A stretch of 54,390 bases of DNA from Candidatus Poribacteria bacterium (GTDB taxonomy: Bacteria > Poribacteria > WGA-4E > PCPOR2b). The position numbers and the translations under genes are program-made. The notes under the pieces are model-generated. The model did not search any database. It was not told the origin of the DNA and was given only the letters and a program-made list of their open reading frames with translations. This document shows, in pieces, positions 26,664 through 49,581 of this stretch; the first letter of the stretch is position 1; each line of letters begins with the position of its first letter. The stretch lies in NCBI GenBank assembly GCA_021295755.1, contig JAGWBT010000087.1:3712-58101 (forward strand), in the 5' to 3' direction.

Positions 26664-28889
26664 GTGAACGCAGAGGACAGAGGACCAAAAGTGAATCGGG
26701 TTGGGTCTACCGCGCAAAGGCTTGCAGAAAAGCCTTACGAAAAGCGTGTATGCCGCATAGAGTGCTATCCAAGTTGTGTGCAACCGGGGGAGTCATATGT
26801 CGGACTGTCCGTCGAGGAGTGGGTGGACTTCATCGATGAAATTGGTGTCGAAGTGCAGGTAGTCGATGGAGAGATCAACAGGGGTACGCCCCGCTTTCGC
26901 TCAAAGATGATTCCGCCACCTCCCAATGTTGACAACGATCGCCTGCCTAGATTCTTGGAACTGGCGCACCAACGGGGCATCCTTATCCTCAGCTACTATC
27001 CTGTCATATACACCAAACCACTCAAGCCGCTTCATCCGGAGTGGTTGATGCAGTTTCTGGATGATGGAAGACATCGTTCCGAGCATTCCGATAAATCGGA
27101 ACCTGAAATCGAAAATCTGGGCTGGTTTTGCTTCAACTCACCGTATCGGGACTGGTTACCGGAATATCTCATTGAATGGTTAGACAATCTTGACCTCGAT
27201 GGCTTCTATTTCGACGACACCAACTACGGGTCCCACGAAGAGCGTCCTTTTTACCCCTCCTGCTGTTGTGAATACTGTGAAAAACTGTTTCGGGAAGAGA
27301 CGGGGTTGGAAATTCCCCGAAAGGTTGACTTTGATTCTCTGGACTTCCGACACTTTGTCAACTGGCGCTATGAGAAGATGAAGGATTTTATGCACCATCT
27401 CTTCCGGCAGATCAGGGCAGAGCATCCGGATGTCATCCTTGACATGAATTCATACATTCGACCAACTGCCGACTGGTCAGACGGTCACCCGCTCAACTCA
27501 TTCCACTTGGAAGATGTTGGTGGCTATTTCTTCGTGGAGACATTTCGCTCCCTACGCGAACCCAACTTTACAGCAAAAGTGCTACGGTCAACTGGCACCC
27601 CCTTCGGTCTCTTCCGGAACGTCACTCAATCACTCCAAGGATTTGGCGGTGCACCTTATCCTGACACGTTTTCCCCCGCAATCGCTGGCCTTGCCGCCAT
27701 CGCTAACGGCGGTGCCCCGTGCGGCAATCCTTTCGATGGACCGACAATTCTCCATAAGGATACGGTTAAGTCTGTCTTCAGCGAATTTAAGAAACGGGTC
27801 GATTACATCAAAGGCGATACGGTCAAATACGTCGCGCTCCACTACTCACAGCAGAACCGGGATTTTCGTCCATCGGAGATCCCCAAGAACACAGGACAAA
27901 CCTACTTCCACGAGATTGGGCAGAAGGACGCTTACGGTGCCTACGAGATATTGAATCGGTCACATCTGTTGTTTGACTTCGTTTTGGACGAACGACTGAA
28001 CTACGAGACGCTGTCCCAATATCGCTTGCTTTTTCTCTCAAACAGCGCGTGTTTGTCCGACGAACAGTGCGAGGCTATCAGAAGATTTGTCCATGAAGGT
28101 GGCACGCTCATCGCCACCCATGAGACTTCGCTGCTCGACGAGCTTGGACGTGAGCGTGGAAAATTTGCCCTCTCCGATGTATTAGGCGTGGAGTACAGAG
28201 GAACACGTGGAGGCACAAATGACCACGGTATCATATACGTCCCTCAAGATGCAGAGCTGTCGCGCCAATTCGGTCATGTCATCTGTTTTTACGGTCAGGA
28301 ATCTGCGGTGTCCGTTCTGCCGGATGCGGACATCCATGTACTTTGCACACGAAGCTGTCTAGAAGGGGAACGCTTGCTGAAGGATTTTGACCCAAGGATG
28401 GACTATGATTCGCCCGAACCGGCTATCACAATGAACCGTTATGGGAAAGGCAAAGCGATTTATATCTGCGGTGATGTGGGTGGCGCATATATGAACAATC
28501 CGTACCCGCCACTGAAACGGCTCATCATCGACTTAGTGAAGCAAACACCTCCACCTATCGAGTTTGAGATGCCGGAAGCTATTGAGGTAACCGCTGCCCA
28601 CCGAGATGCGAATGAGTTGATGATTCATCTGCTCAACAATCCCATCCCACTCCTGCCGTGGCGTATTACCAATCGTGAGAAACACGATGCAGAGATGACC
28701 ACTTTTTTGTCGCTCCGTGAGGTGAACCCTATCCACAATATTCGGGTTCGGTTTAATGACTTCGCGGTGAAATCGGCACGATTGCCGCTACAGGAGACAA
28801 ATCTAGAGGTGTCAGGAAGCGCCGCTGCAACGGTTGTGGTGCCAGCGGTAAGTCTCCACGAGGTGCTTCTTGTGGAGTATAGAAATTAA
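26664..28889 (+). CDS. GHL6-like glycoside hydrolase with C-terminal glutamine-amidotransferase-like domain
   Basis: This 741-residue protein lacks a signal peptide. It begins GTG 26664 with GAGGGGG upstream. The first 400 residues form a barrel like hypothetical glycosyl hydrolase family 6 (GHL6): RGILILSYYPVIY, LDGFYFDDTNYG (acidic pair FDDT near residue 180), a cysteine-rich SCCCEYCEKLF and HPDVILDMNSYIRPT. After about residue 420 there is a beta-galactosidase-trimerisation/class I amidotransferase-like fold (LLFLSNSACLSDEQCEAIRR, then FVHEGGTLIATHETSLLDE), as in many GH42-clan proteins. It probably cleaves a glycan, with fucosidase- or galactosidase-like activity, but the substrate is unknown. 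The CCCEYC cluster may bind a metal. A serine hydrolase follows 14 bases later. Confidence 0.65.
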   Translation: MNAEDRGPKVNRVGSTAQRLAEKPYEKRVCRIECYPSCVQPGESYVGLSVEEWVDFIDEIGVEVQVVDGEINRGTPRFRSKMIPPPPNVDNDRLPRFLELAHQRGILILSYYPVIYTKPLKPLHPEWLMQFLDDGRHRSEHSDKSEPEIENLGWFCFNSPYRDWLPEYLIEWLDNLDLDGFYFDDTNYGSHEERPFYPSCCCEYCEKLFREETGLEIPRKVDFDSLDFRHFVNWRYEKMKDFMHHLFRQIRAEHPDVILDMNSYIRPTADWSDGHPLNSFHLEDVGGYFFVETFRSLREPNFTAKVLRSTGTPFGLFRNVTQSLQGFGGAPYPDTFSPAIAGLAAIANGGAPCGNPFDGPTILHKDTVKSVFSEFKKRVDYIKGDTVKYVALHYSQQNRDFRPSEIPKNTGQTYFHEIGQKDAYGAYEILNRSHLLFDFVLDERLNYETLSQYRLLFLSNSACLSDEQCEAIRRFVHEGGTLIATHETSLLDELGRERGKFALSDVLGVEYRGTRGGTNDHGIIYVPQDAELSRQFGHVICFYGQESAVSVLPDADIHVLCTRSCLEGERLLKDFDPRMDYDSPEPAITMNRYGKGKAIYICGDVGGAYMNNPYPPLKRLIIDLVKQTPPPIEFEMPEAIEVTAAHRDANELMIHLLNNPIPLLPWRITNREKHDAEMTTFLSLREVNPIHNIRVRFNDFAVKSARLPLQETNLEVSGSAAATVVVPAVSLHEVLLVEYRN

Positions 28890-28903: not shown

Positions 28904-29992
28904 ATGCAATTTTCACAAAATATATACTATCCGGAACGAGGGGACGATTGGGAGCGCAGAAAACCTGAGGATGTGGGTGTTGATCCTGACTCTCTCAACG
29001 AGGCAATTCACTATGCCCAGACGGTCGAAACCGCATGGTCTCGTAAACTACGGTTGCATTATACCGAGATGGAAAGGGAAGAATCCCACCCCGAGGTCAT
29101 TGGATCGATAAAAGACCGGGCCGCGCTTAACGGACTTATCTTGCGGCACGGCTACATTATCGCCGAATGGGGCGAGACGCAGCGCGCCGACATGACGTTT
29201 AGTATTACCAAGAGTTATCTGTCTACGACAGCAGGACTAGCGTTAGACCGCGACCTGATTCGAGACGTACATCAACCTGTCCGAGACTATGTAAACGACG
29301 GTGGATTCGATTCACCACACAACGCCCAAATTACTTGGCATCACTTGCTTCAACAAACGAGTGAGTGGAAGGGGACGCTTTGGGACAAACCCGACTATGC
29401 TGACAGTCAGGGAGAGCGGGGTCCTGATAATGCGCTTCCAGCCCCCGGCAGCGTCTTTGCTTACAATGATGTCCGTGTTAACCGGCTCGCGCTTTCTCTG
29501 CTGCGTGTTTGGCGCAAGCCGCTGCCGCAGGTGCTAAAAGACAACGTGATGGACCCTATCGGTGCTTCCAATAGTTGGCGATGGCATGGCTACCGAAATT
29601 CGTGGCTGACAATTGATGGACGGAAGATGCAGTCGGTCAGTGGTGGTGGTCACTGGGGTGGTGGAGTCTGGATTAGCACCAGAGATCATGCGCGGTTCGG
29701 CTATCTATTTCTGCGACGTGGGCGCTGGGGTGAACGGCAGATACTTTCTGAGCGGTGGATAGATCTAGCGACCACACCGTGTCCGGTTGAACCGGATTAT
29801 GGCTATATGTGGTGGCTCAATACGGATAGGCAGCTATTCCCAAGCGCACCAGAAACGAGTTTCTGTGCTCTGGGTGCTGGACGGAACATGATTTGGATTG
29901 AACCGGAAAATGATTTGGTGGTTGTAGTGCGGTGGATAGAGTCAGATTGTATTGACCAATTGATGAAACACGTGCTAGCAGCGATTCGCTAA
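28904..29992 (+). CDS. Serine hydrolase of the beta-lactamase class C / penicillin-binding-protein-like family
   Basis: The 362-residue protein has the class C serine-hydrolase motifs: S100-x-x-K103 in FSITKSYLSTT, Y187-N188 in PGSVFAYNDVRVN, and a C-terminal GGGHWGGGVWIS (the K/H-x-G-type segment). EPDYGYMWWLN and WIEPENDLVVVVRW are typical of the environmental esterase/amidase group. There is no signal peptide, so it is probably cytosolic and not a drug-resistance enzyme. It may hydrolyse acyl esters or amides on the sugars processed by its neighbour. TAGGAGGTCTTAA precedes the ATG. It is co-directional with and 14 bases after the GHL6-like gene. Confidence 0.8.
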   Translation: MQFSQNIYYPERGDDWERRKPEDVGVDPDSLNEAIHYAQTVETAWSRKLRLHYTEMEREESHPEVIGSIKDRAALNGLILRHGYIIAEWGETQRADMTFSITKSYLSTTAGLALDRDLIRDVHQPVRDYVNDGGFDSPHNAQITWHHLLQQTSEWKGTLWDKPDYADSQGERGPDNALPAPGSVFAYNDVRVNRLALSLLRVWRKPLPQVLKDNVMDPIGASNSWRWHGYRNSWLTIDGRKMQSVSGGGHWGGGVWISTRDHARFGYLFLRRGRWGERQILSERWIDLATTPCPVEPDYGYMWWLNTDRQLFPSAPETSFCALGAGRNMIWIEPENDLVVVVRWIESDCIDQLMKHVLAAIR

Positions 29993-34511: not shown

Positions 34512-36494
34512 TCAAGGGAAAAATAGGTATAAAGAGATAGTCGTTGGAATGTCCAAAATACTCCAGAGGCTACCCAAGATATAGTCTCCTAACGCGAGTC
34601 CGAGAAAGAATGGGATTGCGCGTCGATATGCATTGAATCCGCTATAACGCAGGATGATAGCCTTGCACGCCCAAGCGACAAAGAGACAGCACCAAAGGTT
34701 CGCCATCCCCCAACTCTGTGCTGTGGCATAGCCGAGCGGATGGAGCGGCCACCATAGGAAACGCGCTCGCAAAAACATCAGCAAGACAGTAAGTACAAGC
34801 CCGCCGCCCATGAAGGCAAGCGCTGGACGATCTGGCTCTTTGGGAGAGTTCAGCCAATTTTCAAGCTGCACATAGACATCACGCCCAAATCCCAATACGG
34901 CGGGATCAAAGTATCCAGATTCCGCGCCATGTCGATAGTAGATATCCAACAAGAGCCAAAAGGTTACCCCTGATCCGATCACTGTCGCAAGCAGAATCGC
35001 AACGGCTGTATGACGCGGGTTAATCTGTCGCCTTTCCGAGATTTTCAAGGCTTCCAGCTGCTCCGGCATTGGATTTGCCCAGTTGGCGCGATTGAAAAAC
35101 ATGTACAGCGAAAAGACGGTCAGCGTACTAGTGTTAAGTCGCCATGTGCCAACACCGACAACAATCATGTTATGTGGACTGATGTATTTCAAACCGTGTA
35201 CTAGGAACCCCAACTCTGCCCTTAGTCGCGTAACCATTACTGATAGCAAGAAATAGATCGCGAAGAAAATTGGGATCACCCACAGCGACATGCCTGCTTT
35301 GTAGGAAAATGCCATCAGAAAAATCAGCCCGATCAGGATACCCGCGCAAGCAAGGCGATATGGCATCGGTTCACCGGAATCATCGAGTTGCGACGGGGAG
35401 GCGCGGGAACTGAAGAGATGACGCACCAGTCCTTTGATATGCGATCTGCCAGTCCAGAGGACGAATCCTAGCAGCCCCATATATACACCGAAAGCCTGTT
35501 CAGCAGGGTAAGGGAAGCGCGGCAGACCTCGCCAACCCATGATGCTACCAACCATCAGCTCGATCTTGTAGATCCAGAAAAATGCCCAGCATGAAAATAG
35601 GAGATCCAGTGGTATAAGAAAGCCGATCCCGATAGCAAAAGGATAGAACGCGACTTGCACACCGCCCATCCCGTTCCAAGGGCGGGTGGTAAAATAGTGA
35701 CTGATGCCCTGGCGTTTGACAGGGATATATGGGACAATAGGGTTGATAGAATGGAGCAGGTTCACAATACTAATCAACGCAGCGATGCCGAAACCGAGCC
35801 ACATCAATCTGTTTCTGAAGAACCCTAACCTCGGATTGGTCATTTCTAACGGGAGTTGGGTCAACGGATAGGTCAACCGCTCGCGCTCAATCCACTGAAT
35901 TCGCAACAGCGCATTGATACATAGCATCACAACCATCCATGCGAAGATAAACGCCATCCACGCCACCGCCGGACCAAGCCACGCCTTCAAATACCTCTCA
36001 ATGTAAAGACTTGACCCACCTTCATAAAGCGCCGTCACCGCTTTTTCATCGTGAACGGTAAGCCACTCTGGAAGTTGTCGCCAAAACAGCTGACGCCATT
36101 CATTTTCAGGACTGGCAAACCGGAACGCATGCGCCATAATCGGTACAAAGATCTCCATACAGTCGTACGAACAAAGGGTAGAGACAATACACAACATGAA
36201 GTAAATCGTGAGGAGTTCCTGTTGGGAAAGACCGAGTTTAGGTGAGATTTTACCGAATATCCACCCAATCAGAACGAGCCAGAAGAGCGTAAAAATGACA
36301 TGCGAGAGCGGATGAACAAGCGTTGGGAAGGTATGGCGAACCACTTCAAGCTGAATGATCCAAGCAACGGTGACTGGAATCAGCAGGAAAGCGATAACGA
36401 ATGATTTAAGTGTTAAACCACTCTGGAAGGGCACAGGGGTATTCTCTGTTAGGGTAAAACGGGTATTTTGAGAGTCTGTCGATATATTTTTCAT
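34512..36494 (-). CDS. Large multi-span membrane protein (DUF6785/DUF6784-type), copy 1
   Basis: The 660-residue protein has at least ten hydrophobic helices, starting with LTLKSFVIAFLLIPVTVAWI, and no signal peptide. Characteristic stretches are WLTVHDEKAVTALYEGGSSL, RIQWIERERLTYPLTQLPLE, KPWN-like RPWNGMGGVQVAFYPFAIGI, RAELGFLVHGLKYISPHNMI and LRARFLWWPLHPLGYATAQS. It is strongly similar to its neighbours at 36552 and 38627, so the three arose by tandem duplication. I recall such proteins as abundant in Poribacteria and Lentisphaerae and of unknown function; a transporter or membrane-enzyme role is possible. The start is ATG 36494 just after the charged MKNISTDSQN. Copies 1 and 2 are about 60 bases apart. 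Confidence 0.75.
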   Translation of the reverse strand: MKNISTDSQNTRFTLTENTPVPFQSGLTLKSFVIAFLLIPVTVAWIIQLEVVRHTFPTLVHPLSHVIFTLFWLVLIGWIFGKISPKLGLSQQELLTIYFMLCIVSTLCSYDCMEIFVPIMAHAFRFASPENEWRQLFWRQLPEWLTVHDEKAVTALYEGGSSLYIERYLKAWLGPAVAWMAFIFAWMVVMLCINALLRIQWIERERLTYPLTQLPLEMTNPRLGFFRNRLMWLGFGIAALISIVNLLHSINPIVPYIPVKRQGISHYFTTRPWNGMGGVQVAFYPFAIGIGFLIPLDLLFSCWAFFWIYKIELMVGSIMGWRGLPRFPYPAEQAFGVYMGLLGFVLWTGRSHIKGLVRHLFSSRASPSQLDDSGEPMPYRLACAGILIGLIFLMAFSYKAGMSLWVIPIFFAIYFLLSVMVTRLRAELGFLVHGLKYISPHNMIVVGVGTWRLNTSTLTVFSLYMFFNRANWANPMPEQLEALKISERRQINPRHTAVAILLATVIGSGVTFWLLLDIYYRHGAESGYFDPAVLGFGRDVYVQLENWLNSPKEPDRPALAFMGGGLVLTVLLMFLRARFLWWPLHPLGYATAQSWGMANLWCCLFVAWACKAIILRYSGFNAYRRAIPFFLGLALGDYILGSLWSILDIPTTISLYLFFP

Positions 36495-36551
36495 CTCACC
36501 AACTATATGTGTTGATATCTACGACAAGCAGGTCGATGTTATCTCTGCCCA

Positions 36552-38443
36552 CTAGGGAAAAAATTGATACAGAGTGCTGTTGGTTGCAATACTTATAATA
36601 CTCCAAAGGCTGCCGAATATATAGTCTCCTAGGGCAAGTCCCAAAAAGAAGGGGATTGCCTGTCGGTATGCCTTAAGTCCGCCGTGACGTAGGATGATTG
36701 CTTTCGCTACCCATGCAACAAAGAGACAAGCCCACAGATTGAACATTCCCCAGCTATTTGCCATGGCATAGCCGAGTGGATGGAGGGGCCACCACAGAAA
36801 GCGCGTTCTTAGGAACATGAGTAGTGCTGCGAAACCGAGTCCGCCTCCCATGAAAGCGATAGCTGGAACATCTGTCTCCTGGGGATAGTTCAGCCATATT
36901 TCGAGTTGATTATAGATGGCTCGTCCGTACCCTAATGCCCATGGTCCATAGTACCCGGTGTCTGCGCCGTGTCGGTAGTAGCTATCTAACAACACCCAAA
37001 AAACGCTCACTGACCCAATTAAAGTGGCGAGTAGAATCGCTGCAGCTATATGACGCGGATTGATATTTCGCCTTTCAGCGATTTTCAGACCCTCTAGTTG
37101 TGGTGGCATCGGATGAGCCCGATAGGCGCGATTGAAAAACTGATATAACGAAAAGACGGTCAATGTGCTCGATCCGAGGCGGCGTGTTCCAAATACGGTG
37201 ACGAGCGTATTGTGCGGGTCAATATAATGTAAATCGTGTACTAAAAAACCCAATTCCGCACGGAGCCTCGCAATCATTATCGCTACTAGAAAGTAAATCG
37301 CGAAAAAGATCGGAGTAACCCACAAGGACATCCCCGCTCTGTAGGAAAATACCATCAAAAATATCAATCCAATTACTATGCCGGCGACTGCCAAGCGATA
37401 CGGCATCGGTTCACGGGAATCATCAAGTGAAGATGAGCCTAGCAGATGGCGCACCAACCCTTTGAAATGGACTCTGCCGATCCACAAGACAAATACGAGC
37501 AGTGCAACGTAAACCCCCAATGCCTGTTCGTTAAAATAGGGAAAACGCGGCAGATTGCGCCATCCCATTATGTTACCGACCATTAGTTCGATCTTATAGA
37601 CTCCGTAAAACATCCAGCATGAAAAGAGGAGATCCAGGGGTATGAGGAACCCAATGCCAATGACAAAGGGATAAAACGAAACCCGGAAGGAGCCCATCGC
37701 ATTCCAAGGGCGGACGGTGAAAAATTGGTGTAAATTCTGACGCTTGACGGGAATATAGGGAACCGCGGGGTAAATCGAATTGAGCAGGTTCATTATACTA
37801 ATCAACGCAGCGATGCTGAAGCCAAGCCACATCAGCTTATTTTTGAAGAACCTGTTACTAGTGTCTGTCATTTCCAGTGGAAGTTGAATAATTGGGTAGG
37901 TCAACCGTTCCCGTTCCGTCCACTGAATCCGTAACAACGTATTAATGCACAGCATCACAAACATCAGGACAAAGATTAATGGGACGTATGCCAGAGCGGG
38001 ACGGAGCCAGGCATACAGGTGCCGTTTGATATAGAAACTGGATCCTCCTTCGTAATAGGGGGTTAGTGCCTTTTCATCTTGGACGGTGAGCCAAGCGGGA
38101 AGTTCCTTCCAGAACAGTTCGCGCCATTGGTTTTCAGGTGTTGCAAAACGGAAGGGATGCCCCAAAAGGGGGATCAAAATCTGCATCGAGTCACCCGAGC
38201 AGAGAGATGATACGATCCCTAACATAACATAGATCGTCAGAAGTTCCGACGAACTAATTCCAAGCTTGGGAGAAATTTTCTTGAGGAGGGCTCCAATCAG
38301 AAGTAGCCAAAACAGAATAAAAATAACATTTGATAGCGGATGGACGAGCGTGGGAAATGTATAACGGACGACTTCGAGTTGAATAAGGAAGTAAATATTG
38401 ATCGGAATGAGGCACAGTGTGATAAAAAGGTCGTTTCGGGCAC
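36552..38443 (-). pseudogene. DUF6785-type membrane protein, copy 2, with a frame break near the start
   Basis: The conserved frame is open from about base 38447 to the stop at 36552. It encodes a close homologue of copy 1 (WLTVQDEKALTPYYEGGSSF, RIQWTERERLTYPIIQLPLE, RAELGFLVHDLHYIDPHNTL). The first ATG in this frame, 38225, would cut away the first two helices. A GGAGG at 38453-38457 and GTG at 38443 make a good start, but that GTG is in another frame. Only V-P-E-T-T can be read before it should meet DLFITLCLIPINIYFLIQLE. The N-terminal 25-40 residues of copy 1 are missing, so a small deletion with frame shift within the first codons is likely. Start, frame and function therefore remain doubtful. 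A sigma70-like promoter sits upstream. Confidence 0.65.
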
Positions 38444-38526
38444 TGTATTAAGCCTCCAATGGAGGTGATAAGAACAACGTTAAACTCAATATGGACTTTA
38501 TGAAAGTGACATACAGCTCTGTTCTC

Positions 38527-38554
38527 ATTATAAATTGTAGTAAGTAAAAGTCAA
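38527..38554 (-). promoter_or_regulatory. Sigma70-like promoter of DUF6785 copy 2
   Basis: On the minus strand TTGACT and TATAAT are separated by 16 bases, ending about 80 bases before the GTG at 38443. It indicates that copy 2 is transcribed apart from copy 3. Confidence 0.65.
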
Positions 38555-38626
38555 GCGGCACCGTCAGTTGGACATCCTATTGGAAATGATAGCGGACGAG
38601 AACAAAGTCAATAGAGATTTTAGCCC

Positions 38627-40543
38627 TCACCAAATAAATCGATACATCGGTCTCTGTACAATCACACCAATCAGCGCCCACACACCTCCGAGTAGAAACT
38701 CGCCGAATAACATTCCTAGAAAGAACGGTGCTAGGCGACGAAACGTCCTTATGCCTCCAAAGCGGAGGATGCACAACTTAATCACCCAAGCGACGAGCAC
38801 CGAGGACCAAAAAAAGTTGACCGCCCATGTCCCTGTGATGCCGTACCCAACGGGATAGAGGGGCCACCAAACGAAACGATGACGTAAGGCGGTGAGAGCG
38901 AAAGTGAAGAGTGTGCCGAAGAGCATTGCCAAGATTCCTAGGATATCCACAGGCATTGGATTGGTGAGCCAGCCCTGAGTCCGTCGAAAGACACCGCCGC
39001 CCCAAAACGCCACTGCACCGGATTCGTAGCCGAGCTGCAATCCACCCAAGAACAGGGGCAGCGGGCTGATGACGACAGCGATTAGTATCGCAAATCCGAC
39101 GCGACGCGTTGAGATACCCGCCCGCTCGGCGAGCTTCAGTCCTTCCAGTTGCGGCGGCATAGCATTACCCCGATAAGCACGATTAAAAGGAAATACGAGC
39201 GCAAACAGGCTGAGATTTCTAGGACCGACTCGCCGCATGCCAAACATCTGTGGAATTAACACATCAGGTCCCATCCTGCGGAGATCATGGAGGGGAGGTC
39301 CGAGCTCGGCGCGAATGCGGGCTGTAACGGTCACGGTTATAAAATGGATGATGAAAACTAGGACAGCAACCCAAAGCGACATCCCCGCTACGACCCAAAA
39401 CCCGATTAACAGTAGGAAACCGATAATTATTCCGAGGACTGCCGTACGATAAGAAATCGGTTCGTTAGACTCAGACGCTTTATCGCCGCGCCATGCGCCT
39501 ATCAGCACATTTCGTATATGATGGCGCGCACTCCAAAACACCAGAATCAGCACGCCGACACAGACGCCAAACGATTGCTCAAAGATATAGGGAAAATTGG
39601 GGATCTGCTGAAACCCGAGAATACTCCCCATGATCAATTCAAATTTCCAGAAGATATAGAAAAACCAGAACGTAAAGGAGAGATCGAGCGGCATAAAATA
39701 TGCCATCCCAACGGCAAAGGGGAAGAGCGTGACGGGTGTCCAACCGATAGCGTTCCACGGTTTCGTAGTAAAATAGGGGCGCAAATCGAAGAAATCGCCA
39801 CCGAGTCCTGGGATGGACGGATACAAGAAATGCAGCGCGTTGACGATATCCATACCGCCCGCGAGGATCGCTCCAGCCCACATCAACCGATTCCGAAAGA
39901 AGCCCTTGGTTGTCATCTGCTGCGGGAGTTCGATAATTGGGTAGCTGAGTCGTTCTATCTCAATCCACTGTTTCCGCATAATGACGTTGATGCAAAATGC
40001 CGTGCAAACAAGGACGACGATAAACCCAGACCACGAAAGGACGGGCTTCCACCATAACCGAAGATGTTCGTCAAGGTAAAGGGTCGATTCACCGACAAAA
40101 TAGGTCGTGAGGCTGTTTTTATCGGTCAATGCTAGCCAATCGGGGAAGTAACGGTGAAACAATGTCGCCCATTCGTTCTCCTCAGTTGCCAGCCAGCCGC
40201 CGCCGGCGATATGTGTGATAATTACGGCGAAGAAATCTGCACCGGCGATTGCAGTGGCGACGGAGAGCATGGTGTAGAACGTCAGCAGTTCGCCTTGCGT
40301 CAATGCCAAGCGAGGCGAATATAGGGAAATTCCATAATTCAATACAAGCAGAATCGCAAAGATAAAAATCACATTGAAGAAGAGCGACATAGTCGTCGGG
40401 AGGCCCTGTGCCCACCGCAGCATCGCGTAGACCCAATAGTTGTTAAAGGGGATGATAGCCACCGCCAGCCAGATTACACGCCAACGGATTTCTGGTTGAG
40501 GGCGGCGGGTTGAAGCAGGAAAACGATTGTCTGTCGGACTCAA
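38627..40543 (-). CDS. Large multi-span membrane protein (DUF6785/DUF6784-type), copy 3
   Basis: The 638-residue protein is complete. The charged N-terminus (SPTDNRFPASTRRPQPEIRW) is followed by helices starting IWLAVAIIPFNNYWVYAMLR, and the family stretches WLALTDKNSLTTYFVGESTL, KQWIEIERLSYPIIELPQQM, RAELGPPLHDLRRMGPDVLI and LRHRFVWWPLYPVGYGITG. It is more distant from copies 1 and 2 than they are from each other. Its length and helix order set the standard that copy 2 falls short of. A PhyH oxygenase lies 82 bases upstream on the same strand. Function is unknown; the conserved charged residues between helices suggest transport or membrane catalysis, which is inference. Confidence 0.75.
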   Translation of the reverse strand: MSPTDNRFPASTRRPQPEIRWRVIWLAVAIIPFNNYWVYAMLRWAQGLPTTMSLFFNVIFIFAILLVLNYGISLYSPRLALTQGELLTFYTMLSVATAIAGADFFAVIITHIAGGGWLATEENEWATLFHRYFPDWLALTDKNSLTTYFVGESTLYLDEHLRLWWKPVLSWSGFIVVLVCTAFCINVIMRKQWIEIERLSYPIIELPQQMTTKGFFRNRLMWAGAILAGGMDIVNALHFLYPSIPGLGGDFFDLRPYFTTKPWNAIGWTPVTLFPFAVGMAYFMPLDLSFTFWFFYIFWKFELIMGSILGFQQIPNFPYIFEQSFGVCVGVLILVFWSARHHIRNVLIGAWRGDKASESNEPISYRTAVLGIIIGFLLLIGFWVVAGMSLWVAVLVFIIHFITVTVTARIRAELGPPLHDLRRMGPDVLIPQMFGMRRVGPRNLSLFALVFPFNRAYRGNAMPPQLEGLKLAERAGISTRRVGFAILIAVVISPLPLFLGGLQLGYESGAVAFWGGGVFRRTQGWLTNPMPVDILGILAMLFGTLFTFALTALRHRFVWWPLYPVGYGITGTWAVNFFWSSVLVAWVIKLCILRFGGIRTFRRLAPFFLGMLFGEFLLGGVWALIGVIVQRPMYRFIW

Positions 40544-40624: not shown

Positions 40625-41464
40625 TCATGAAGTACTGATCCACTCCAGATCACGTAAACATTCAATCCAACGTTCGCGCACAGGATTTCCTTGAGCGCCT
40701 TCGATCCAGTGTGGGTGACAAAAGGGTGCATCAATCGGGTAGTTGAACATACGATAGTGGTTGCTGTGTATGGTGCGCGCTTCTTTGCGGCGAGCATCTG
40801 CCTGCTCTGGGGTTTTTGACGGAACCCAATATACAGTCGCACCGAAGCGTCGATTGGGAGCACCTCCAAAACTAGCGTGTAACAAAGGCATAGCAAATGC
40901 GATTACATCACCCGGCTCAGATTCCACGGCTACACTAGGAAGCATGCGGTCACCCGGCTGGATTTCTAGCGCTCTTACCTTTCGCATGTAATCCTCATCC
41001 TTTGGGGTGAGACGCAGAGGCTCGACTTCGGGAACATTGGTGTGGTGAGGCTCTATGTGGGACCCCGGCACGACGCGTAAAGATCCGTTCTCCGCTTGAA
41101 GCGCATCCAAATAATAGATGAATTTCAATCCGGTGTTCCCCGGCACATCCAGATCGCGGTGCCAGCCTGTATTAGCCTGCCACCAGAGCATATCGGTGTT
41201 TAAGCCGATTATGTTCTCGTCAAAGAGTTGGGTGGCAATACCGTAGAAGCGCTCGTCCTCAAGCAGGGAAGCGTTGAAAGGAGTGGAGGGACCAAGAAGT
41301 GGCACCCAACTGCCGTGGGGACCGCCTTCGCGACCTTGGTAAATTTCGTTCAAGGCAATTTCCGCCTCGCTGCCGATGGTCTCCATCTCTTGTAGACTAA
41401 ACAACTGGCGAAACACAAGAAATCCGAATTCGTTAAAGAAGTTGATTTGTTCGTCGGTGAGCAT
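40625..41464 (-). CDS. Phytanoyl-CoA dioxygenase (PhyH) family Fe(II)/2-oxoglutarate oxygenase
   Basis: The 279-residue protein shows the full PhyH plan. LTDEQINFFNEFGFLVFRQL starts it, H102-x-D104 is in TGWHRDLDVPGN, NGSLRVVPGSH follows, and the distal H196 with Arg205/206 is in LLHASFGGAPNRRFGATVYW. The H-R-D-L-D and P-GSH pattern matches enzymes acting on free small molecules rather than CoA esters. The ATG at 41464 is the only start near the conserved N-terminus. It is divided from the ABC importer by about 110 bases, and both might serve uptake and oxidation of the same compounds, but that is not shown. The substrate is unknown. Confidence 0.85.
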   Translation of the reverse strand: MLTDEQINFFNEFGFLVFRQLFSLQEMETIGSEAEIALNEIYQGREGGPHGSWVPLLGPSTPFNASLLEDERFYGIATQLFDENIIGLNTDMLWWQANTGWHRDLDVPGNTGLKFIYYLDALQAENGSLRVVPGSHIEPHHTNVPEVEPLRLTPKDEDYMRKVRALEIQPGDRMLPSVAVESEPGDVIAFAMPLLHASFGGAPNRRFGATVYWVPSKTPEQADARRKEARTIHSNHYRMFNYPIDAPFCHPHWIEGAQGNPVRERWIECLRDLEWISTS

Positions 41465-41574: not shown

Positions 41575-42609
41575 TCAGTCTCCATATTGTTCTACGCCTT
41601 TTAGTACCAATTCCTTGGCAAAATGACAGGCGGTGAAATGGTCAGGCTGTATCTCTTGCCAAACAGGTGGTTCAGTTTTGCAGATATCCTCGGCATATCT
41701 GCAGCGGGGATGGAACGGACAACCGTTGGGGATATCAGCCGGGTTTGCTGCTTCACCATCAAGAATAATCCGTCGATTTTTACTGTCTCCTTCGGGTGTT
41801 GGCACCGCTGAAAGCAGTGCTTCGGTGTAGGGGTGTTTGGGGCGAAAAAATAGATCTTCGGTCTTTGACATCTCGACCAATTTTCCGACATACATCACGC
41901 CAACCCGGTCGGAAATGTGCTCGACCACAGAAAGATCGTGCGAAATAAATAGATAGGTTAACTGTAAATCTTTTTGGAGGTCAAGGAGTAGATTGAGAAT
42001 CTGGGCTTGAATTGAGACATCCAAGGCACTGACCGCTTCATCGCATACGACGAGCTTTGGATTTGTGGCTAATGCTCTTGCGATACCGATACGCTGCCGT
42101 TGACCACCGCTAAATGCGTGAGGGTAACGTTTCAGGTATTTGACCTCTAGACCAACGACTTCCATAAGTGCCTTGACACGTTCTTCCAGTTCGACCCCCT
42201 TGGCTATACCGTTTACCTCCAAAGGCTCGCCCACAATTTCTAGTACTGTCATACGGGGGTCAAGCGATGTGTAAGGGTCTTGGAAAATCATCTGCATGTG
42301 TTGACGAACTTCTCGAATCTCTTTTGGGTTCAGCGAAATCAAATCGACCATTTCTCCGTCGGCTCTGAACTTCACGATACCATCAGTCGGTTCAATCGCC
42401 CGTATAACACTACGCCCCAAGGTTGTCTTTCCGCAACCGCTTTCTCCTACTAGGCCAAGGGTTTCGCCTTGATCGATAGAGAAACTCACATCGTCGACCG
42501 CTTTGACCTGACCCACCTCGCGCCTTAAGAAACCTATCGTAATAGGGAAATATTTTTTGAGGTTTTGCACCTCCAAAAGCCGTTTTGCATTCCCTTTTTC
42601 TTGATTCAT
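41575..42609 (-). CDS. Oligopeptide/dipeptide ABC importer ATPase (OppF/DppF type)
   Basis: The 344-residue cytosolic ATPase has Walker [11 protein letters not shown]-loop [17 protein letters not shown], signature [15 protein letters not shown], Walker [15 protein letters not shown] and H-loop ISHDLSV. The C-terminal extension [20 protein letters not shown] carries the cysteines that in this family hold an iron-sulfur cluster. It pairs with the OppD-type ATPase to drive the two permeases. Its first codons overlap the end of the upstream ATPase gene by 4 bases, a sign of coupled translation. It is the last gene of a five-gene operon (47915 to 41575). Confidence 0.9.
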
Positions 42610-43619
42610 CCTTCAACGCCTTCGATTTCGTCACTGTGTAGAAAACAACAGACCGAATGTTTTTTATTTTTCTCTAGTAGAGCTGGAATATCTACATCAC
42701 AAACCCCTGTTTTAGATTCAGGGCAGCGAGAAAAGAATCCACATCGCCGAGGCGGGTCAAGGGGAATTGGGACATTGCCTTCTATAGTTTCAAGCCTTGA
42801 ACGAGCTTTGTGACCCAGTTTAGGCACACTTTTCAATAACCGTTGTGTATAAGGATGAAGTGGATTATCAAGGATTTCGCGGGTTGGTCCTTGTTCAACA
42901 ATTCGCCCTAGATACATCACCGCAACTTCATCGGCAATCTCAGCAATGACACTGAGGTCGTGTGTAATATAGATCATGCTCATCCCTGATGGCCCCTGCA
43001 ATTCTTGTAGCAGTTCAAGGATCTGCGCTTGTACCGTTACATCCAGAGCGGTTGTCGGTTCATCAGCGATTAGTAATTTCGGTTCACAACATAACGCCAT
43101 AGCAATCATAACGCGCTGCCGCATTCCGCCAGAAAGCTGATGTGGTAGTTCTTCTATTCTTTGGGATGGGTTGTTGATACCTACACGATTGAGCATGTCC
43201 AGTGCGATGTCGCGTGCTTCTGTTCGGTTCTGGGTTTCGTGCAATAGAAGGGCTTCCATGATTTGGTCCCCAACGGTATGAATCGGACTGAGGCTTGTCA
43301 TGGGTTCCTGAAAGATCATCGCAATTTGACGGCCTCTAATATCACGAATCGTTTTCCCAAATGGATCTAGCTGATTAATAAAAACCGGTTCCTCCCCGTC
43401 TGTATATAAGATAATTTCTCCATCAACAATCCTGCCGGGGTGCGGTACTATTTGTAGGATTGATTGGGCAGTAATGCTCTTGCCGCAGCCGCTTTCGCCT
43501 ATAATTCCAAGCGTCTGTTTCTCAGAGACCTTAAAGCTGACCCCATCGACGGCTTTTAAGACGCCCTCATCGAGGAAGAAATGCGTTTTCAAATTATTCA
43601 CTTCAAGCACTGGCAACAT
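42606..43619 (-). CDS. Oligopeptide/dipeptide ABC importer ATPase (OppD/DppD type)
   Basis: The 337-residue protein has Walker [11 protein letters not shown]-loop [20 protein letters not shown], signature [15 protein letters not shown], Walker [15 protein letters not shown] and H-loop THDLSV. The C-terminal [16 protein letters not shown] has the spaced cysteines usual in Opp/Dpp ATPases. It forms a heterodimer with the next gene's product and powers peptide or related small-molecule import. The 4-base overlap (ATGA) with the downstream OppF-type gene shows tight coupling. The upstream OppC gene ends 54 bases before the ATG at 43619. Confidence 0.9.
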
Positions 43620-43672
43620 TATATACTCACTCAGTCAAATTTTTTGGCCACCTTAGCGATCATTAGCGGTTC

Positions 43673-44806
43673 TTAATGACGATGCGGATCCGCCGCATCT
43701 CTCAAGCCATCACCCACGAAATTGAAGGCAAGCACCGCGACAATTACAGCCGCTGCAGGCGTAATAATCCACGGGTATAGAGTAACGGTGGTAACCGCTT
43801 GAGCCTCTTTGAGCAAAACACCCCAACTCGTTACAGGCGGTCGAAGTCCTATATTGAGAAAGCTCAACGAAGTTTCGGCGAGAATCATCCAAGGGATCGC
43901 CAGCGTTAAATGTACAATGATATAGGTAAATACGCCGGGTATCAGATGACGCCGAATGATGTAGCCATCTGTAGCACCACTGACCTTAGCCGCCATGACA
44001 AAATCTTGCTCCCTCAGCGAAAGCAGCTGACTTCTGACGACCCTTGCAACTCCTGTCCATCCCATAAAAGAGAGAATCACTGTGATGCCAAAATATACCA
44101 ACACCGGCGACCATTCGGGTGGGACCGCTGCACCGAGTGCCATCCAAAGTGGTATAGTCGGGAAAGAGCGGAGTATTTCAACAACACGTTGTATGACAAT
44201 GTCCCAAATCCCGCCAAGATAGCCTGAAATGCCGCCAAGGAATAAACCAATTATAAGCGAAAGCAATACACCGATGATTCCTACAGAGAGACTGATTCGA
44301 GCACCGTAGATAATTCGAGATAACAGATCTCTTCCCATCCGGTCTGTGCCTAGCAGAAATATACTTCCCTGCTTGTCAACACCAAACAGATGTATGTCGG
44401 TTTCAAATAATCCCCACAGCTTGTAAGTGTTTCCACGAGCGAAAAGTCTGATAGGATACTTTTTTGTCTTGTCCTCTTCATAGATCTTCTGGAAAGTTTT
44501 TTTGTCGATTGTGCGCTTAACACCGTACACAAATGGTCTGAAGTTAAAACCATTTTCGTCGAAAAAGTGGACATCTTGGGGAGGAAAGTAGGTGTATTTG
44601 GCGTGCCGATCTCCAAGCCGATATGGTGCGAAAAATTCACAGAAGATAGCAATGAAGTAGAATAGAGCTAATAGGGTTAGGCTGATTTGCGCCAACTTGT
44701 GCTTTTTGAATTGAATCCAAATCAGTTGGCGATGAGATAAAGCTGAATATAGATTGTTATCCTGTTCCGTTTTTTCTCGCTTTTTTCTTTTCTTTAAGAA
44801 AATCAT
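43673..44806 (-). CDS. Oligopeptide/dipeptide ABC importer permease (OppC/DppC type)
   Basis: The 377-residue membrane protein has a charged N-terminus, a first helix (ISLTLLALFYFIAIFCEFFA), then a long extra outer loop (about residues 75-150) before the core helices. GRDLLSRIIYGARISLSVGI and the ATPase-contact EAA-like loop VSGATDGYIIRRHLIPG identify it as the OppC type. ETSLSFLNIGLRPPVTSWGV and a C-terminal NFVGDGLRDAADPHRH are diagnostic. It forms the channel with OppB. The extra outer loop is common in environmental OppC proteins and may contact the large binding protein. It starts 3 bases after the OppB stop. Confidence 0.9.
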   Translation of the reverse strand: MIFLKKRKKREKTEQDNNLYSALSHRQLIWIQFKKHKLAQISLTLLALFYFIAIFCEFFAPYRLGDRHAKYTYFPPQDVHFFDENGFNFRPFVYGVKRTIDKKTFQKIYEEDKTKKYPIRLFARGNTYKLWGLFETDIHLFGVDKQGSIFLLGTDRMGRDLLSRIIYGARISLSVGIIGVLLSLIIGLFLGGISGYLGGIWDIVIQRVVEILRSFPTIPLWMALGAAVPPEWSPVLVYFGITVILSFMGWTGVARVVRSQLLSLREQDFVMAAKVSGATDGYIIRRHLIPGVFTYIIVHLTLAIPWMILAETSLSFLNIGLRPPVTSWGVLLKEAQAVTTVTLYPWIITPAAAVIVAVLAFNFVGDGLRDAADPHRH

Positions 44807-44809
44807 TGC

Positions 44810-45802
44810 CTAATTTGATTCAAAATGAATTCTCGGATCAACGATAACCAATAGAATATCAGAAACAAAATTTCCAACAACTGTCAGTGATGACAAGATC
44901 AACACGATGGATCCGGCGAGAAACATGTCTTGCCCTGATAGTGCCTTTAGGAAAATGGGACCAATTGTTGGAAGGGAGAGGACGACCGAGGTGATGACTG
45001 TCGCGGATATCATTTCTGGAAGTTGCCAACCGATTACACTGATGATGGGGACTAACGCCATTCTCACAGGATATTTGTATAGAAGACGTCTTTCGCTGAC
45101 CCCTTTAGCTCGCGCGGTCATAACATACTGTTGCCTTAATTCGTCCATGAGTGTTCCGCGCATGATACGAATTAACCAAGCAGTTCCAGCTGTACCGACC
45201 ACGATTATCGGAACCCATAAATGACTGATAAAGTCCAGAAATTTGGCAAAACTCCACGGCTGATCATAAAATTCAGGTGAGAATAAGCCGCCGATGCTTA
45301 TTCCAAAATATTGATGAAATATCCAAATCAGTACAAGTGCGAGAAGGAAATTCGGAGTTGCCACGCCAATGAAACCCAAGAATGTGAGCGTGTAGTCCCC
45401 AAAGGAGTATTGGTGTGTGGCTGCATAGATCCCAACCGGGATTGCCAGCAAGTAGGTAAAGATTAATGAAACAAAAGCGATGAGGAGCGTATAGCTTAAT
45501 CGTTCCCAAATGATTTCGTTAACGGGTCTATTCCACATAAAGGAGACGCCAAAATCACCGACAAGAACACCTTGCATCCATAAGAGATACTGAATATACA
45601 CAGGTTTGTCAGCCCCCAACTCCTTTCGCAGTTGCGCTTCATAGTCTGCGTCAAGCCGACTCGCATCATTTGCCATTTCAGCCATAATATAATCAACAAA
45701 ATCTCCCGGCGGCAATTGAATGATGATAAAACTCACTATTGAAATGAAGACGAGCGTTGGGATCGCATAAAGCAATCTTTGGATAATATACCGTATTATC
45801 AT
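44810..45802 (-). CDS. Oligopeptide/dipeptide ABC importer permease (OppB/DppB type)
   Basis: The 330-residue protein has six helices. It starts with IIRYIIQRLLYAIPTLVFIS and FIIIQLPPGDFVDYI. It carries the DppB-type loop GVSFMWNRPVNEIIWERLSY, the EAA-like coupling loop RAKGVSERRLLYKYPVRMAL and the C-terminal ALSGQDMFLAGSIVLILSS with ILLVIVDPRIHF. It is the first permease of the operon. OppC follows after only 3 bases, and the binding-protein gene ends 70 bases upstream. The frame shows no damage. Confidence 0.9.
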   Translation of the reverse strand: MIIRYIIQRLLYAIPTLVFISIVSFIIIQLPPGDFVDYIMAEMANDASRLDADYEAQLRKELGADKPVYIQYLLWMQGVLVGDFGVSFMWNRPVNEIIWERLSYTLLIAFVSLIFTYLLAIPVGIYAATHQYSFGDYTLTFLGFIGVATPNFLLALVLIWIFHQYFGISIGGLFSPEFYDQPWSFAKFLDFISHLWVPIIVVGTAGTAWLIRIMRGTLMDELRQQYVMTARAKGVSERRLLYKYPVRMALVPIISVIGWQLPEMISATVITSVVLSLPTIGPIFLKALSGQDMFLAGSIVLILSSLTVVGNFVSDILLVIVDPRIHFESN

Positions 45803-45872
45803 GGTTTATTTTTTTGGCTTTTCACTATACTTGTGAGAGTTTACACCATGACTGCCTCCGTACCTACTATGA

Positions 45873-47915
45873 TTAATTTTTGAAATAGAAGGTTTCGTAT
45901 GCAATATTTTTCGGGCTGTTGTAGGCGAGTGCATACACGCCTTCCATTGAAACATTACCTAATCTCTTTGAAATAATCATGGGTTGGGGAACATCACCTA
46001 CAACACCGATAACCCATAAGTTATCAATATGATTCTGGATGATTTGTTCTAAGAGTCGCTTTTGTTCAGCCTCGGTTTCTGCGACAAGTATTTTTTGGTG
46101 GAGATCGAAAAGGGCTTGCATTTCAGGGATAGGTTTTTCACCCTGTTCTCCATCATAATGGTACCACTGAGAATACAAAGGTGCCCACGAGTTGGACCAC
46201 GAATCTGTTGCATAAGGGACAAAATGCACCATGGTGGAGTAACTTGGAAAATAGACATAGAGGCCAATTTGAAGTTTGTTGTCTGCCCACTTGGGCATAA
46301 GCTGCTCGCGAGCCTGATTATCAACAGCCACATCAACGCCAATCTTACCCCAATATTCCTTTAGCATTTCTGCTGTGTCAACATCTTCAGTGCCGAGCCA
46401 GCCTTGATAACAGGAAACAACGACGGTGAGTTTCTTTCCATCTGGGCGTAAGCGATATTTCCCATCCCATTTGAGTCCCATTTCATCGAGTAGACGGTTT
46501 GCCAGTTTTACATCGTATTGTGCATAATTGTTCGCCCATTTATCACGATGGAAAATGCTATTTGAAGCTGACGAAGCCTGCCTTGGTGTTAGCAATCCCA
46601 TGGTCACAAGTTCGTTGGCTTCCTCACGATTAATGGCAACGGAAAGTGCTTGTCTAAAACGCACGTCCTGGAAGATTTTCCGCAGCGTCAAGTCTTCAAC
46701 CGTTTGGTTTATAAATATTCCGGGCAGTGCACCAATGTGGGTATCGTAAAGCGCCACATCAAAGTTATTCTTTTCTGCATTTGCCATAAAGGTGGGAAGA
46801 TTATTCGGACTGAGCCGCCGCCCCTGAAAATCGACTTCGCCGGCGGCGGCTTTCAGATTCAGCATAGTGGTGTCTTCTGTCAAAGTATGGACGATTTCAT
46901 CGATGTAGGGAAGTTGATTGCCGGCACTATCAACTTTCCAGTAGTAGGGATTGCGGGTGTGCACAAGACGTTCCGGTGTTGCTTGCGTGACTTTGTACGC
47001 GAAAAGCGTTGGGTGATCTGGATTACCAACAAACCAACCTTGTCCACTGCTGCTGGACTTTGCGGACCAAAGTTGAAGCCACGTATCAAAACCGGCTTTT
47101 TTTGCTTTCTTTTTCAGCTCGCCGATGGGGGTGTATTTTGGATGGAACTGCTTGAGGTAGTGTCTCGGATATGAGGTAAAACCGAGGTAATTTGCAATCA
47201 GCGTATGAAAAAATAGATGGGGTTCCTTAAAGGTTATTTGAAAGGTATGTTCATCTAACACTTTAAGTTTCCCATACTCACCACCCGATTTATATTGAAA
47301 TCCGGGGACATTTAGGATATCTTTATCAAATTGGACATCCTCCCAGTAAAACAAAATATCTTCGGTGGTGAATGGATGACCATCTGACCATTTGATTCCC
47401 TTTCGGATATGATAAGTGTATACACGACCTCCATTGGAAATTTGTGCATCCGTGACAACACAGGGAATAATTTCAGTGCCATCTTCGGACCATTCTATCA
47501 ACGATTCTCCGGTCAACTTTTCAACACCCCATTTATCTGAAAAACCGAGCCACACGCGGTTCAGAGTCCCCCCATACTTACCAATTTCAGGTGGACTCAG
47601 AACCAGTGGATTCTCCGGAAGCCGCTCTTCAACCGGTGGAAGTTTCCCCTGTTTGACAAGCTCTGCCAGCATCGGTGCTTCGTTATATTCTTCTGTATGG
47701 GATACTGTGGTGAATGTGAGTGATATGCCTATTACTGCGATGAATAGTAGGCATTTGGCAATAGATACCCCACAAATACTACTGTTGGATTGGTATTTCC
47801 GCCTCTGCGTGCAGTTGACACTCAATCTTTTCACTGGGTTTGAAGGCAGGTGTAAAAATCGGGAAATCTCGATTGAGTGTGTTTCAGGCTGGCTGATAGT
47901 TGGTTTTGGTATCAT
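45873..47915 (-). CDS. Extracellular solute-binding protein of the oligopeptide/dipeptide ABC importer (SBP_bac_5)
   Basis: The 680-residue protein captures the substrate outside the membrane. About 50 polar residues precede a signal-type hydrophobic segment (CLLFIAVIGISLTFTTV). This is unusually long, but the ATG at 47915 has a proper GGAG and no better downstream start is visible. The mature part shows the family patterns YTYHIRKGIKWSDGHPFTTE, then DILFYWEDV, RNPYYWKVDSAGNQLPYIDE and VRFRQALSVAINREEANEL. The size and the EERLPENPLV segment fit the large environmental subgroup (DppA-like) that may bind oligosaccharides or peptides. Gene order SBP-OppB-OppC-OppD-OppF is standard, so it should be one operon. 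Confidence 0.85.
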   Translation of the reverse strand: MIPKPTISQPETHSIEISRFLHLPSNPVKRLSVNCTQRRKYQSNSSICGVSIAKCLLFIAVIGISLTFTTVSHTEEYNEAPMLAELVKQGKLPPVEERLPENPLVLSPPEIGKYGGTLNRVWLGFSDKWGVEKLTGESLIEWSEDGTEIIPCVVTDAQISNGGRVYTYHIRKGIKWSDGHPFTTEDILFYWEDVQFDKDILNVPGFQYKSGGEYGKLKVLDEHTFQITFKEPHLFFHTLIANYLGFTSYPRHYLKQFHPKYTPIGELKKKAKKAGFDTWLQLWSAKSSSSGQGWFVGNPDHPTLFAYKVTQATPERLVHTRNPYYWKVDSAGNQLPYIDEIVHTLTEDTTMLNLKAAAGEVDFQGRRLSPNNLPTFMANAEKNNFDVALYDTHIGALPGIFINQTVEDLTLRKIFQDVRFRQALSVAINREEANELVTMGLLTPRQASSASNSIFHRDKWANNYAQYDVKLANRLLDEMGLKWDGKYRLRPDGKKLTVVVSCYQGWLGTEDVDTAEMLKEYWGKIGVDVAVDNQAREQLMPKWADNKLQIGLYVYFPSYSTMVHFVPYATDSWSNSWAPLYSQWYHYDGEQGEKPIPEMQALFDLHQKILVAETEAEQKRLLEQIIQNHIDNLWVIGVVGDVPQPMIISKRLGNVSMEGVYALAYNSPKNIAYETFYFKN

Positions 47916-48504: not shown

Positions 48505-49581
48505 TTATGCGGAGGCGACTGTCAGTTCCCTCATCTTGTCGTCGTCCAACTCGATGCCCAAGCCAGGTCCCTCTGGCGGATACAGGTGGCTTTCTTCAGC
48601 TCGGATGCGCACTTTAGCAGGTGAAACTGTATAGAGTAGGGGACCAGCAGGGTCAGCAGGAATATCAAGGTTGGGCACCGAAACCCCTAGATGCACCGCA
48701 CCGGCTGTGCCTACGGTTGAATCCTGATCGGTCGAAAGCAAAGTTTTGAAGCCCGCGGCTTCGTAGGTCGGACCATACCAGATCCACGCCAAGTTAAGGA
48801 CGGTGCATGCCCCGCGCTCAATGGCCTCATAGCCTTGCTCTAGGTTGCTGATGTGCAGACTTACCTGCGTATCCATCCGCTTGACAAACTCGGCGCACAC
48901 TCGCAAATTGTTTGATGGTTGCTCAAAATTATACGGATTATGATGACGTAACACGTCTGCGTAGCGCAGGGCGGTCTCCCAATCGTTGAAACGTCCGGAA
49001 AAATCGAAGGCTTTGAGTTTGATTTTGTCCCCAAAACGGGCTTTCATCTCGGTGATGAACCGGTTGTCCAGATCACTGTCTCCTGAAACGTAGTAGCGAA
49101 ACAGATGATGTCCCAAATCCACCAACCGCTGTAGGTAGCTGGCGTTCCGCTCAAAGCCATCCTCTAGGTGCGCCCCTATAATCGGATAACAGAAGTACAC
49201 GCTTTCTCGCACTTTTCCGCCCATTAAATTGTGGGCTGGCACGCCCTGCGCCTTACCGTTGAGGTCGTACAATCCGATGTCGATGGCGGCTGTTATGTGT
49301 GCGTTACTGACTGTACTCTCAAAGTCCTGCGCCCGCATCAACTCATTAATCTCGGTAATCCGAGTGGCGTCGCGTCCAACCAGCAAATCGTTGTAGCGCT
49401 TTGTTAGCGCGCCCAGATCATCAGCCTTGCTGTCCGGTGCCTCTCCTAGCCCTACAAGCCCGTCAGCCACATGCAGCTTCACGACAACGTGACCTGATGG
49501 CGCTTCGCCTGTGTCAACGGGGTGTTTTTGGTAATAGCGTGGGGTTTCAATCTGGAATGTTTCGATTTTCGTGATTTTCAT
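48505..49581 (-). CDS. Divergent enolase-superfamily (MR/MLE-like) protein
   Basis: The 358-residue protein has the capping domain (KITKIETFQIETPRYYQKHP, then VVVKLHVADGLVGLGEAP) and the barrel. Second-strand residues expected as K-x-K are replaced by FRYYVSGD, so the catalytic lysines seem absent. An Asp (KAFDFSGRF) and a Glu (FEQPSN) could bind metal, but the third site is VSLHISNLE with His. A late His appears in GTAGAVHLGVSVP. The partial gene at the window's left end has the same type of change at the third site, so they may form one subfamily. It is unlikely to be a normal racemase. It could be a dehydratase-like or scaffold form, which is inference. It heads a run with the 2OG oxygenase upstream. 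Confidence 0.75.
   Translation of the reverse strand: MKITKIETFQIETPRYYQKHPVDTGEAPSGHVVVKLHVADGLVGLGEAPDSKADDLGALTKRYNDLLVGRDATRITEINELMRAQDFESTVSNAHITAAIDIGLYDLNGKAQGVPAHNLMGGKVRESVYFCYPIIGAHLEDGFERNASYLQRLVDLGHHLFRYYVSGDSDLDNRFITEMKARFGDKIKLKAFDFSGRFNDWETALRYADVLRHHNPYNFEQPSNNLRVCAEFVKRMDTQVSLHISNLEQGYEAIERGACTVLNLAWIWYGPTYEAAGFKTLLSTDQDSTVGTAGAVHLGVSVPNLDIPADPAGPLLYTVSPAKVRIRAEESHLYPPEGPGLGIELDDDKMRELTVASA

Follow-up and report, generated by a model that had tools for sequence, protein, structure and literature searches.

Three DUF6785/DUF6784 genes in tandem

The stretch of DNA analyzed here (the window) comprises 54,390 nucleotides (nt) of a contig from Candidatus Poribacteria bacterium, the genome assembly of which amounts to 5.03 Mb in 257 contigs. 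At positions 34512-40543, a reading made from the sequence alone (the sequence-only reading) had described three tandem genes for large membrane proteins of unknown role. Three open reading frames (ORFs) on the same strand were confirmed in this region. They are referred to as copies c1, c2 and c3, and together as the trio:

34512-36494, minus strand: c1, 660 amino acids (aa); PF20581 and PF20580; predicted OPT/YS1 fold; the protein that was modelled
36552-38443, minus strand: c2; PF20581 and PF20580; ORF as listed 36552-38225, 557 aa
38627-40543, minus strand: c3, 638 aa; PF20581 and PF20580; divergent copy, nearest paralogue the unlinked gene L069

PF20581 (DUF6785) matched c1, c2 and c3 with E-values of 9.8e-152, 2.3e-144 and 7.6e-145 (506, 482 and 484 bits; curated cut-off 25), and PF20580 (DUF6784) with 5e-36, 2.5e-36 and 1.9e-32 (123, 124 and 112 bits; curated cut-off 26.4). 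All three proteins therefore belong to both families, the two models covering them near full length (c2 apart from its missing start), and nothing sets them apart from other members. Pfam assigns no function to DUF6785 or DUF6784, and no paper that mentions either was found in full-text searches limited to open-access articles. Among the latter, PMC6040077 alone mentions Poribacteria together with an oligopeptide transporter. The NCBIfam scan of the three proteins gave nothing useful. Matches of OppC_N to c2 (E 0.11, below the cut-off) and those of polyphosphate kinase and SCO2097 (far below the cut-offs) were rejected.

The identity between c1 and c2 is 71.6% (557 aligned residues), compared to 37.5% between c1 and c3 (638 aligned residues) and 39.9% between c2 and c3 (547 aligned residues), in agreement with the earlier view of two close copies and a distant one (72% vs. 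37-40%). The long motifs described as common to the copies are shared only in part. RAELG is exact in all three, whereas ERLTYP, WLTV-x-DEKA (given previously as WLT-x-DEKA) and RFLWWPLHPLGY are limited to c1 and c2, their counterparts in c3 being ERLSYP, WLALTDKNS and RFVWWPLYPVGY.

The ratio of nonsynonymous to synonymous substitution rates (dN/dS) was determined against the corresponding genes of Candidatus Poribacteria metagenome-assembled genomes (relatives L031, L032, L033 and L034). It was 0.04-0.07 for c1 and 0.06-0.10 for the remainder of c2 (four relatives each), the latter being like that of the c2 orthologues, and 0.04-0.09 for c3 (three relatives). With an overall range of 0.04-0.11, purifying selection on the trio is strong.

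The open frame of c2 extends upstream to about 38429 without an ATG, GTG or TTG. In the four relatives c2 is intact (639, 639, 639 and 652 aa), and its GTG start corresponds to window positions 38443-38441. Just past this GTG, at 38429/38428, 28 nt present in all four relatives are missing from the window. The c2 frame is thus broken between the GTG and the listed start in this assembly, either by a real mutation or by an assembly error. A total of 31 PF20581 matches was found in the genome of the window, 24 of which span the model completely or for the greater part and seven of which are partial. Six of the partial matches are paired on contigs C153, C84 and C132 (L064, L074 and L027/L029) and are read as three genes, each in two pieces and either split or degraded. 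Turnover or assembly errors thus touch several copies.

Predicted fold and homology to OPT transporters

For structure prediction and comparison with known transporters, as had been proposed together with the first description, an AlphaFold2 model of c1 was built on 50 family sequences. It reached a predicted local distance difference test score (pLDDT) of 86.4 and a predicted template modelling score (pTM) of 0.88. Using Foldseek against the PDB, the model matched barley YS1 (7wst, E 2.6e-9; 7wsr, E 3.7e-9; TM-score 0.62-0.68), while the best match other than YS1 had an E-value of 0.027 and a TM-score of about 0.1. VIA-align superposed the model on 7wsr with a Z-score of 25.7 and a root-mean-square deviation (rmsd) of 3.7 Å over 549 residues at 13% identity. 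Both halves of the fold superpose on YS1, and the C-terminal end of the model is coil, where YSL members would have a dimerising strand along with the Cys pair C250-C671. The best entry other than YS1 had a Z-score of 5.1; ClC, VMAT, BetP and other PDB folds (Z ≤5.1, partial coverage) were discarded as candidates. As a yardstick, a bona fide bacterial OPT was modelled in the same way and gave a Z-score of 33.6 and an rmsd of 5.6 Å over 538 residues against 7wsr. By this comparison, the DUF6785 protein comes close to a recognised OPT in its likeness to YS1. According to the model, c1 has the OPT/YS1 fold along the whole chain, over nearly its full length, and for c2 and c3 the same fold is predicted by homology. 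YS1 has been described as a proton-coupled Fe(III)-phytosiderophore symporter of the OPT/YSL family (PMC9691689).

The relationship was also seen in the sequence profiles. Of 81 Poribacteria genomes, 48 had a match to the OPT model PF03169 at E≤1e-3 and 10 had one above the cut-off (best E 3.4e-13); the best matches span roughly model positions 310-617 of 623. All 30 loci fetched from these matches were DUF6785 genes, the check being limited to these 30. In a wider sample of 239 genomes (84 Poribacteria and 155 others), OPT matches at E≤1e-20 were found in 41 genomes, all of them non-Poribacteria, and in none of the 84 Poribacteria. Conversely, PF20581 matched inside the OPT gene of locus L156 (G238:C1:955842-956897) with an E-value of 3.1e-5, which is below the cut-off. 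The hhalign comparison of the family with a profile of 30 OPTs from other lineages gave a probability of 77-80% (E 1.4e-5 to 2.2e-5) with up to 514 collinear columns, compared to 0.1-0.2% for reversed-profile controls. The probability was 73% in a rerun with 29 OPTs, from which L169, an ORF of 1107 aa, was excluded. For columns conserved to at least 80% in both families, the same residue was found in 13 of 27 in register and in 0-4 in shifted registers, a comparison which is partly circular because the aligner rewards identities. Bacterial OPTs (PF03169; e.g. L145-L174) are thus linked to the family by a collinear profile-profile match and by weak direct hidden Markov model matches in both directions, whereas their motifs NPVSGMT, DLKTG and LPYPEGTA are absent from the DUF6785 family consensus. 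At the profile level the family is shown to be homologous to OPT, and c1-c3 are assigned to a divergent offshoot of this superfamily.

Conserved residues were counted over 104 family sequences, and the YS1 sequence was aligned through the OPT profile. Two segments of c1 are of particular relevance (coordinates computed by hand):

35865..35903, minus strand: c1 residues 198-210, R-x8-L-x-Y-P (contains ERLTYP)
35031..35066, minus strand: c1 residues 477-488, P-E-Q-L-E-A-L-K-I-S-E-R

The first segment aligns with OPT 'LRR..v.E..LpYPEG' and YS1 'LRQVLVVDYKLVYP', the spacing of R-x8-L-x-Y-P being identical in YS1 and c1. The second aligns with the 'D..qDlKtG' segment of transmembrane helix 9 (TM9) in OPT and YS1, so that D-x-x-x-D-x-K of YS1 falls on E478-Q-L-E481-A-L-K484 with K484 on K496. 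The DxxxD-x-K motif itself (YS1 D490/D494/K496) is not found in the trio family, which has P-x-Q-L-E-x-x-K instead. The second hairpin of c1 carries R423-x-R425-A-E427-L-G429, and the C-terminal GLALGD aligns with OPT SGLIAGE and YS1 SALICGD, with an acidic residue at the matching place (position 637, acidic in 95 of 104). E205 and K611 are invariant (104/104), followed by R198 and P477 (102/104), R423 (96/104), R425 and E481 (95/104 each) and K484 (89/104). The family would accordingly be marked by a pocket signature of its own, consisting of RxRAELG in the second hairpin, P-x-Q-L-E-x-x-K and the acidic residue after the C-terminal GLxxG. A one-to-one equivalence of E481 and YS1 D494 was rejected, as the profile alignment puts E481 one residue off; both are claimed, from this alignment, to lie in the same segment.

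Taken together, the trio very probably encodes secondary transporters of an unrecognised DUF6785+DUF6784 branch of the OPT/yellow-stripe superfamily. The TM9 segment, the second hairpin and the conserved E205, K611 and acidic 637 make a proton- or cation-coupled elevator carrier the best reading. In YS1, two inverted-repeat hairpins are part of a core domain, for which movement relative to a scaffold domain was proposed on the basis of one conformation and simulation (PMC9691689). By analogy, the trio proteins would carry the substrate past the scaffold domain on a mobile core that contains two such hairpins. Coupling to protons or another cation is probable from the YS1 mechanism, with a coupling site that is likewise presumed, and the direction would probably be uptake. 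Of the transport or membrane-enzyme function suggested in the sequence-only reading, the transport half is therefore favoured, as both the fold and the sequences point to homology with OPT/YSL transporters. Similarity to an already known, unrelated family had been named there as a finding that would speak against it; the family to which the likeness points is a transporter superfamily that is already known, and this supports transport.

Distribution, gene neighbourhood and origin

The DUF6785 family was found in all 84 Poribacteria genomes searched. In the five fully scored Poribacteria genomes, 23, 15, 29, 54 and 41 PF20581 matches were counted. Only 5 of the 155 non-Poribacteria genomes contained a match, four of them strong ones (3, 1, 15 and 4 matches), and the match in the fifth (E 3.1e-5) lies within an OPT gene. 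A contig scan with a single trio-family protein as query retrieved Poribacteria only. The 15 matches belong to G194, a genome of 3.8 Mb from outside the phylum with an expansion of its own (L261-L271). One copy there is followed by a BNR-repeat (sialidase-like) protein at a distance of 37 bp, and an M32 carboxypeptidase immediately precedes two copies (L270).

The following genes lie upstream of the trio in the window:

40625-41464, minus strand: PhyH-family dioxygenase, neighbour of the trio
41575-47915, minus strand: peptide/nickel-type ATP-binding cassette (ABC) importer with two ATPases, two permeases and SBP_bac_5 (ATPases named from the sequence, unscanned)
48505-49581, minus strand: mandelate racemase/muconate lactonizing enzyme family protein (MR_MLE), directly upstream of the trio in L031, L033 and L034
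49635-50471, minus strand: 2-oxoglutarate-Fe(II) enzyme of 279 aa with a Pfam match to WelO5 (carrier-protein-independent halogenase, E 7e-25)

The gene order in L031, L033 and L034 runs PhyH, FGE-sulfatase, WelO5-like, MR_MLE, c3, c2, c1 and a convergent aminotransferase, with gene names taken from the window members of the same clusters. L032 has no c3 and carries the PhyH gene of the window. In the window, PhyH and the ABC importer sit between MR_MLE and c3, and the importer is absent at the corresponding place in all four relatives. As the genes on either side of these two are direct neighbours in three relatives, the arrangement looks like an insertion or local rearrangement. The WelO5-like gene recurs beside MR_MLE and the trio in the same three relatives; its product is possibly a halogenase or hydroxylase in a conserved cluster. 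Elsewhere in the window, a glycoside-hydrolase-like protein (Glyco_hydro_42M/GHL6; 26664-28889) is followed by a beta-lactamase-fold protein (28904-29992).

For a survey of the neighbourhood, 96 site loci from five genomes were compared to 25 control loci from three of these five; as genes were called with a longest-ORF script, the counts are rough. No fixed partner across the family was found in these loci. PhyH was not more common near the family (12/529 genes) than in the controls (7/244). Among the 30 commonest neighbour clusters, two had p<0.05 without correction, namely a 532-aa protein and a Zn-dependent alcohol dehydrogenase-like cluster (4/188, p 0.035, and 8/529, p 0.047, vs. 0/244 in the controls, uncorrected for 30 clusters). 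The Pfam tally of adjacent genes (110 of 111; one contig-edge fragment excluded) was diffuse, with AP_endonuc_2 (5), PhyH (4), sulfatase (3) and GFO/IDH (3). For 108 family genes, a same-strand gene less than 100 bp away was found at 35 upstream and 31 downstream ends, and the neighbour was itself a family member in 11 upstream and 9 downstream cases. The close neighbours, of which 20 of 44 in Poribacteria and 10 of 61 nearby genes in other lineages were picked by eye for scanning, form a mixed set of enzymes. Sugar or sugar-acid types are frequent among them, while PPS_PS, homocysteine S-methyltransferase/MTHFR and Wzy_C are of other kinds.

The adjoining PhyH oxygenase and peptide importer, to which the first description had drawn attention, are both real and carry little weight. 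PhyH shows no enrichment and four relatives lack the importer at this place, so that they are no specific partners of the family. PhyH-domain genes were described as remarkably frequent in Poribacteria (PMC3909097), which fits PhyH as a chance neighbour. The lack of a conserved neighbourhood, the other finding named beforehand as adverse, applies to the family as a whole; the order of the trio is kept in three relatives.

Simple local duplication of the trio under dosage selection would fit the adjacency and 72% identity of c1 and c2 as well as the order preserved in L031, L033 and L034. In the phylogenetic tree, however, c1 joins the unlinked L071 first (node support 0.976) and not c2, c3 joins the unlinked L069 (0.989), and c2 with its orthologues meets the c1-like genes only at a 19-member node (0.965). 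Because the nearest paralogues lie elsewhere, the tandem growth named in the sequence-only reading finds little support, and in its simple form this origin is unsupported and improbable. Judged from the tree, the trio is an old conserved cluster with members of different age rather than the result of a single tandem burst.

Function and candidate substrates

Several results weigh against a role as secondary transporters. A shared fold by itself is no proof of activity. A profile search of the family against PDB chains, YS1 included, gave no match at E≤1, and neither did PF03169 against c1, c2 or c3, which is why these are not filed as PF03169 members. YS1 needs Asp446, Asp490 and Asp494 (PMC9691689), and all three are unconserved in the DUF6785 family. 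The D446 column holds G429 of c1, the D490 column position 478 (E in c1 and H in most family members) and the D494 column position 482, which adjoins E481; proton coupling is thus presumed from the likeness to YS1. In the cluster comparison of site and control loci, none of the neighbour families identifies a substrate. The lack of the essential aspartates would also agree with recruitment of the OPT fold for a non-transport role, for example as a membrane sensor or an enzyme acting on a lipid-linked substrate. Such a role would fit the strong conservation of the polar and aromatic residues E130, N131, W133, W144, E205 and K611, some of which belong to a loop with poor alignment to bacterial OPT. 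As the entire fold with both halves superposes on YS1 and neither Pfam nor NCBIfam recognises an extra soluble domain or an enzyme family, this is highly improbable.

With regard to the substrate, the position of the paralogues, each beside different enzymes, suggests that they take up different small organic solutes. The fold common with YS1, a metal-phytosiderophore symporter, would instead be consistent with peptide or metal-chelate carriers like classical OPT/YSL, dozens of which would import peptides or metallophores in Poribacteria. Peptidases close to some copies point in the same direction, namely the M32 carboxypeptidase that precedes two copies in L270 and a C45/C69-like hydrolase near a copy in L070 (matches below the cut-off). 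However, the pocket segments differ (RxRAELG vs. TDxNxxY in YS1 or NPVSGMT in OPT), and the identified close neighbours are mostly non-peptidases such as GFO/IDH, gluconolactonases, DHDPS-type proteins, xylose-isomerase-like TIM barrels and BNR-repeat proteins, so that this specificity appears rather unlikely. Carriers chiefly for sugars, sugar acids and related carboxylates, with a different preference for every paralogue, would agree with the close same-strand neighbours (GFO/IDH, SMP-30 gluconolactonase, DHDPS family, AP_endonuc_2, aldo/keto reductase, sialidase-like BNR-repeat and Iso_dh). They would also agree with the MR_MLE gene just upstream of the trio in three relatives, which resembles sugar-acid dehydratases and cycloisomerases (all below curated cut-offs). 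No such family is clearly enriched compared to control regions of the same phylum, though, the GFO/IDH-like cluster being adjacent in 7/188 cases vs. 5/244 in the controls (p 0.22), and this assignment is possible but tentative. For the family of secondary transporters as a whole, it is a rather unlikely extension that this further OPT branch, with its own pocket chemistry, forms a main organic-solute uptake system of Poribacteria. Each of up to 54 paralogues per counted genome would then carry its own small molecule (such as a sugar acid, carboxylate or amino-acid derivative) and not peptides or metal chelates.

Poribacteria were described as uncultured and as belonging to the dominant symbionts of marine sponges (PMC3909097). 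The analysis provides a testable identity for a family of 'unknown function' that is present in every sampled Poribacteria genome, mostly in multiple copies. It widens the OPT superfamily past the reach of sequence models and supplies naturally occurring variants of the coupling residues in a fold for which YS1 was the only close PDB match in the Foldseek search. As far as is known, genomes are the sole source of information on the nutrition of Poribacteria. An extensive hidden repertoire of uptake carriers, if true, would alter the metabolic reconstructions of the phylum.

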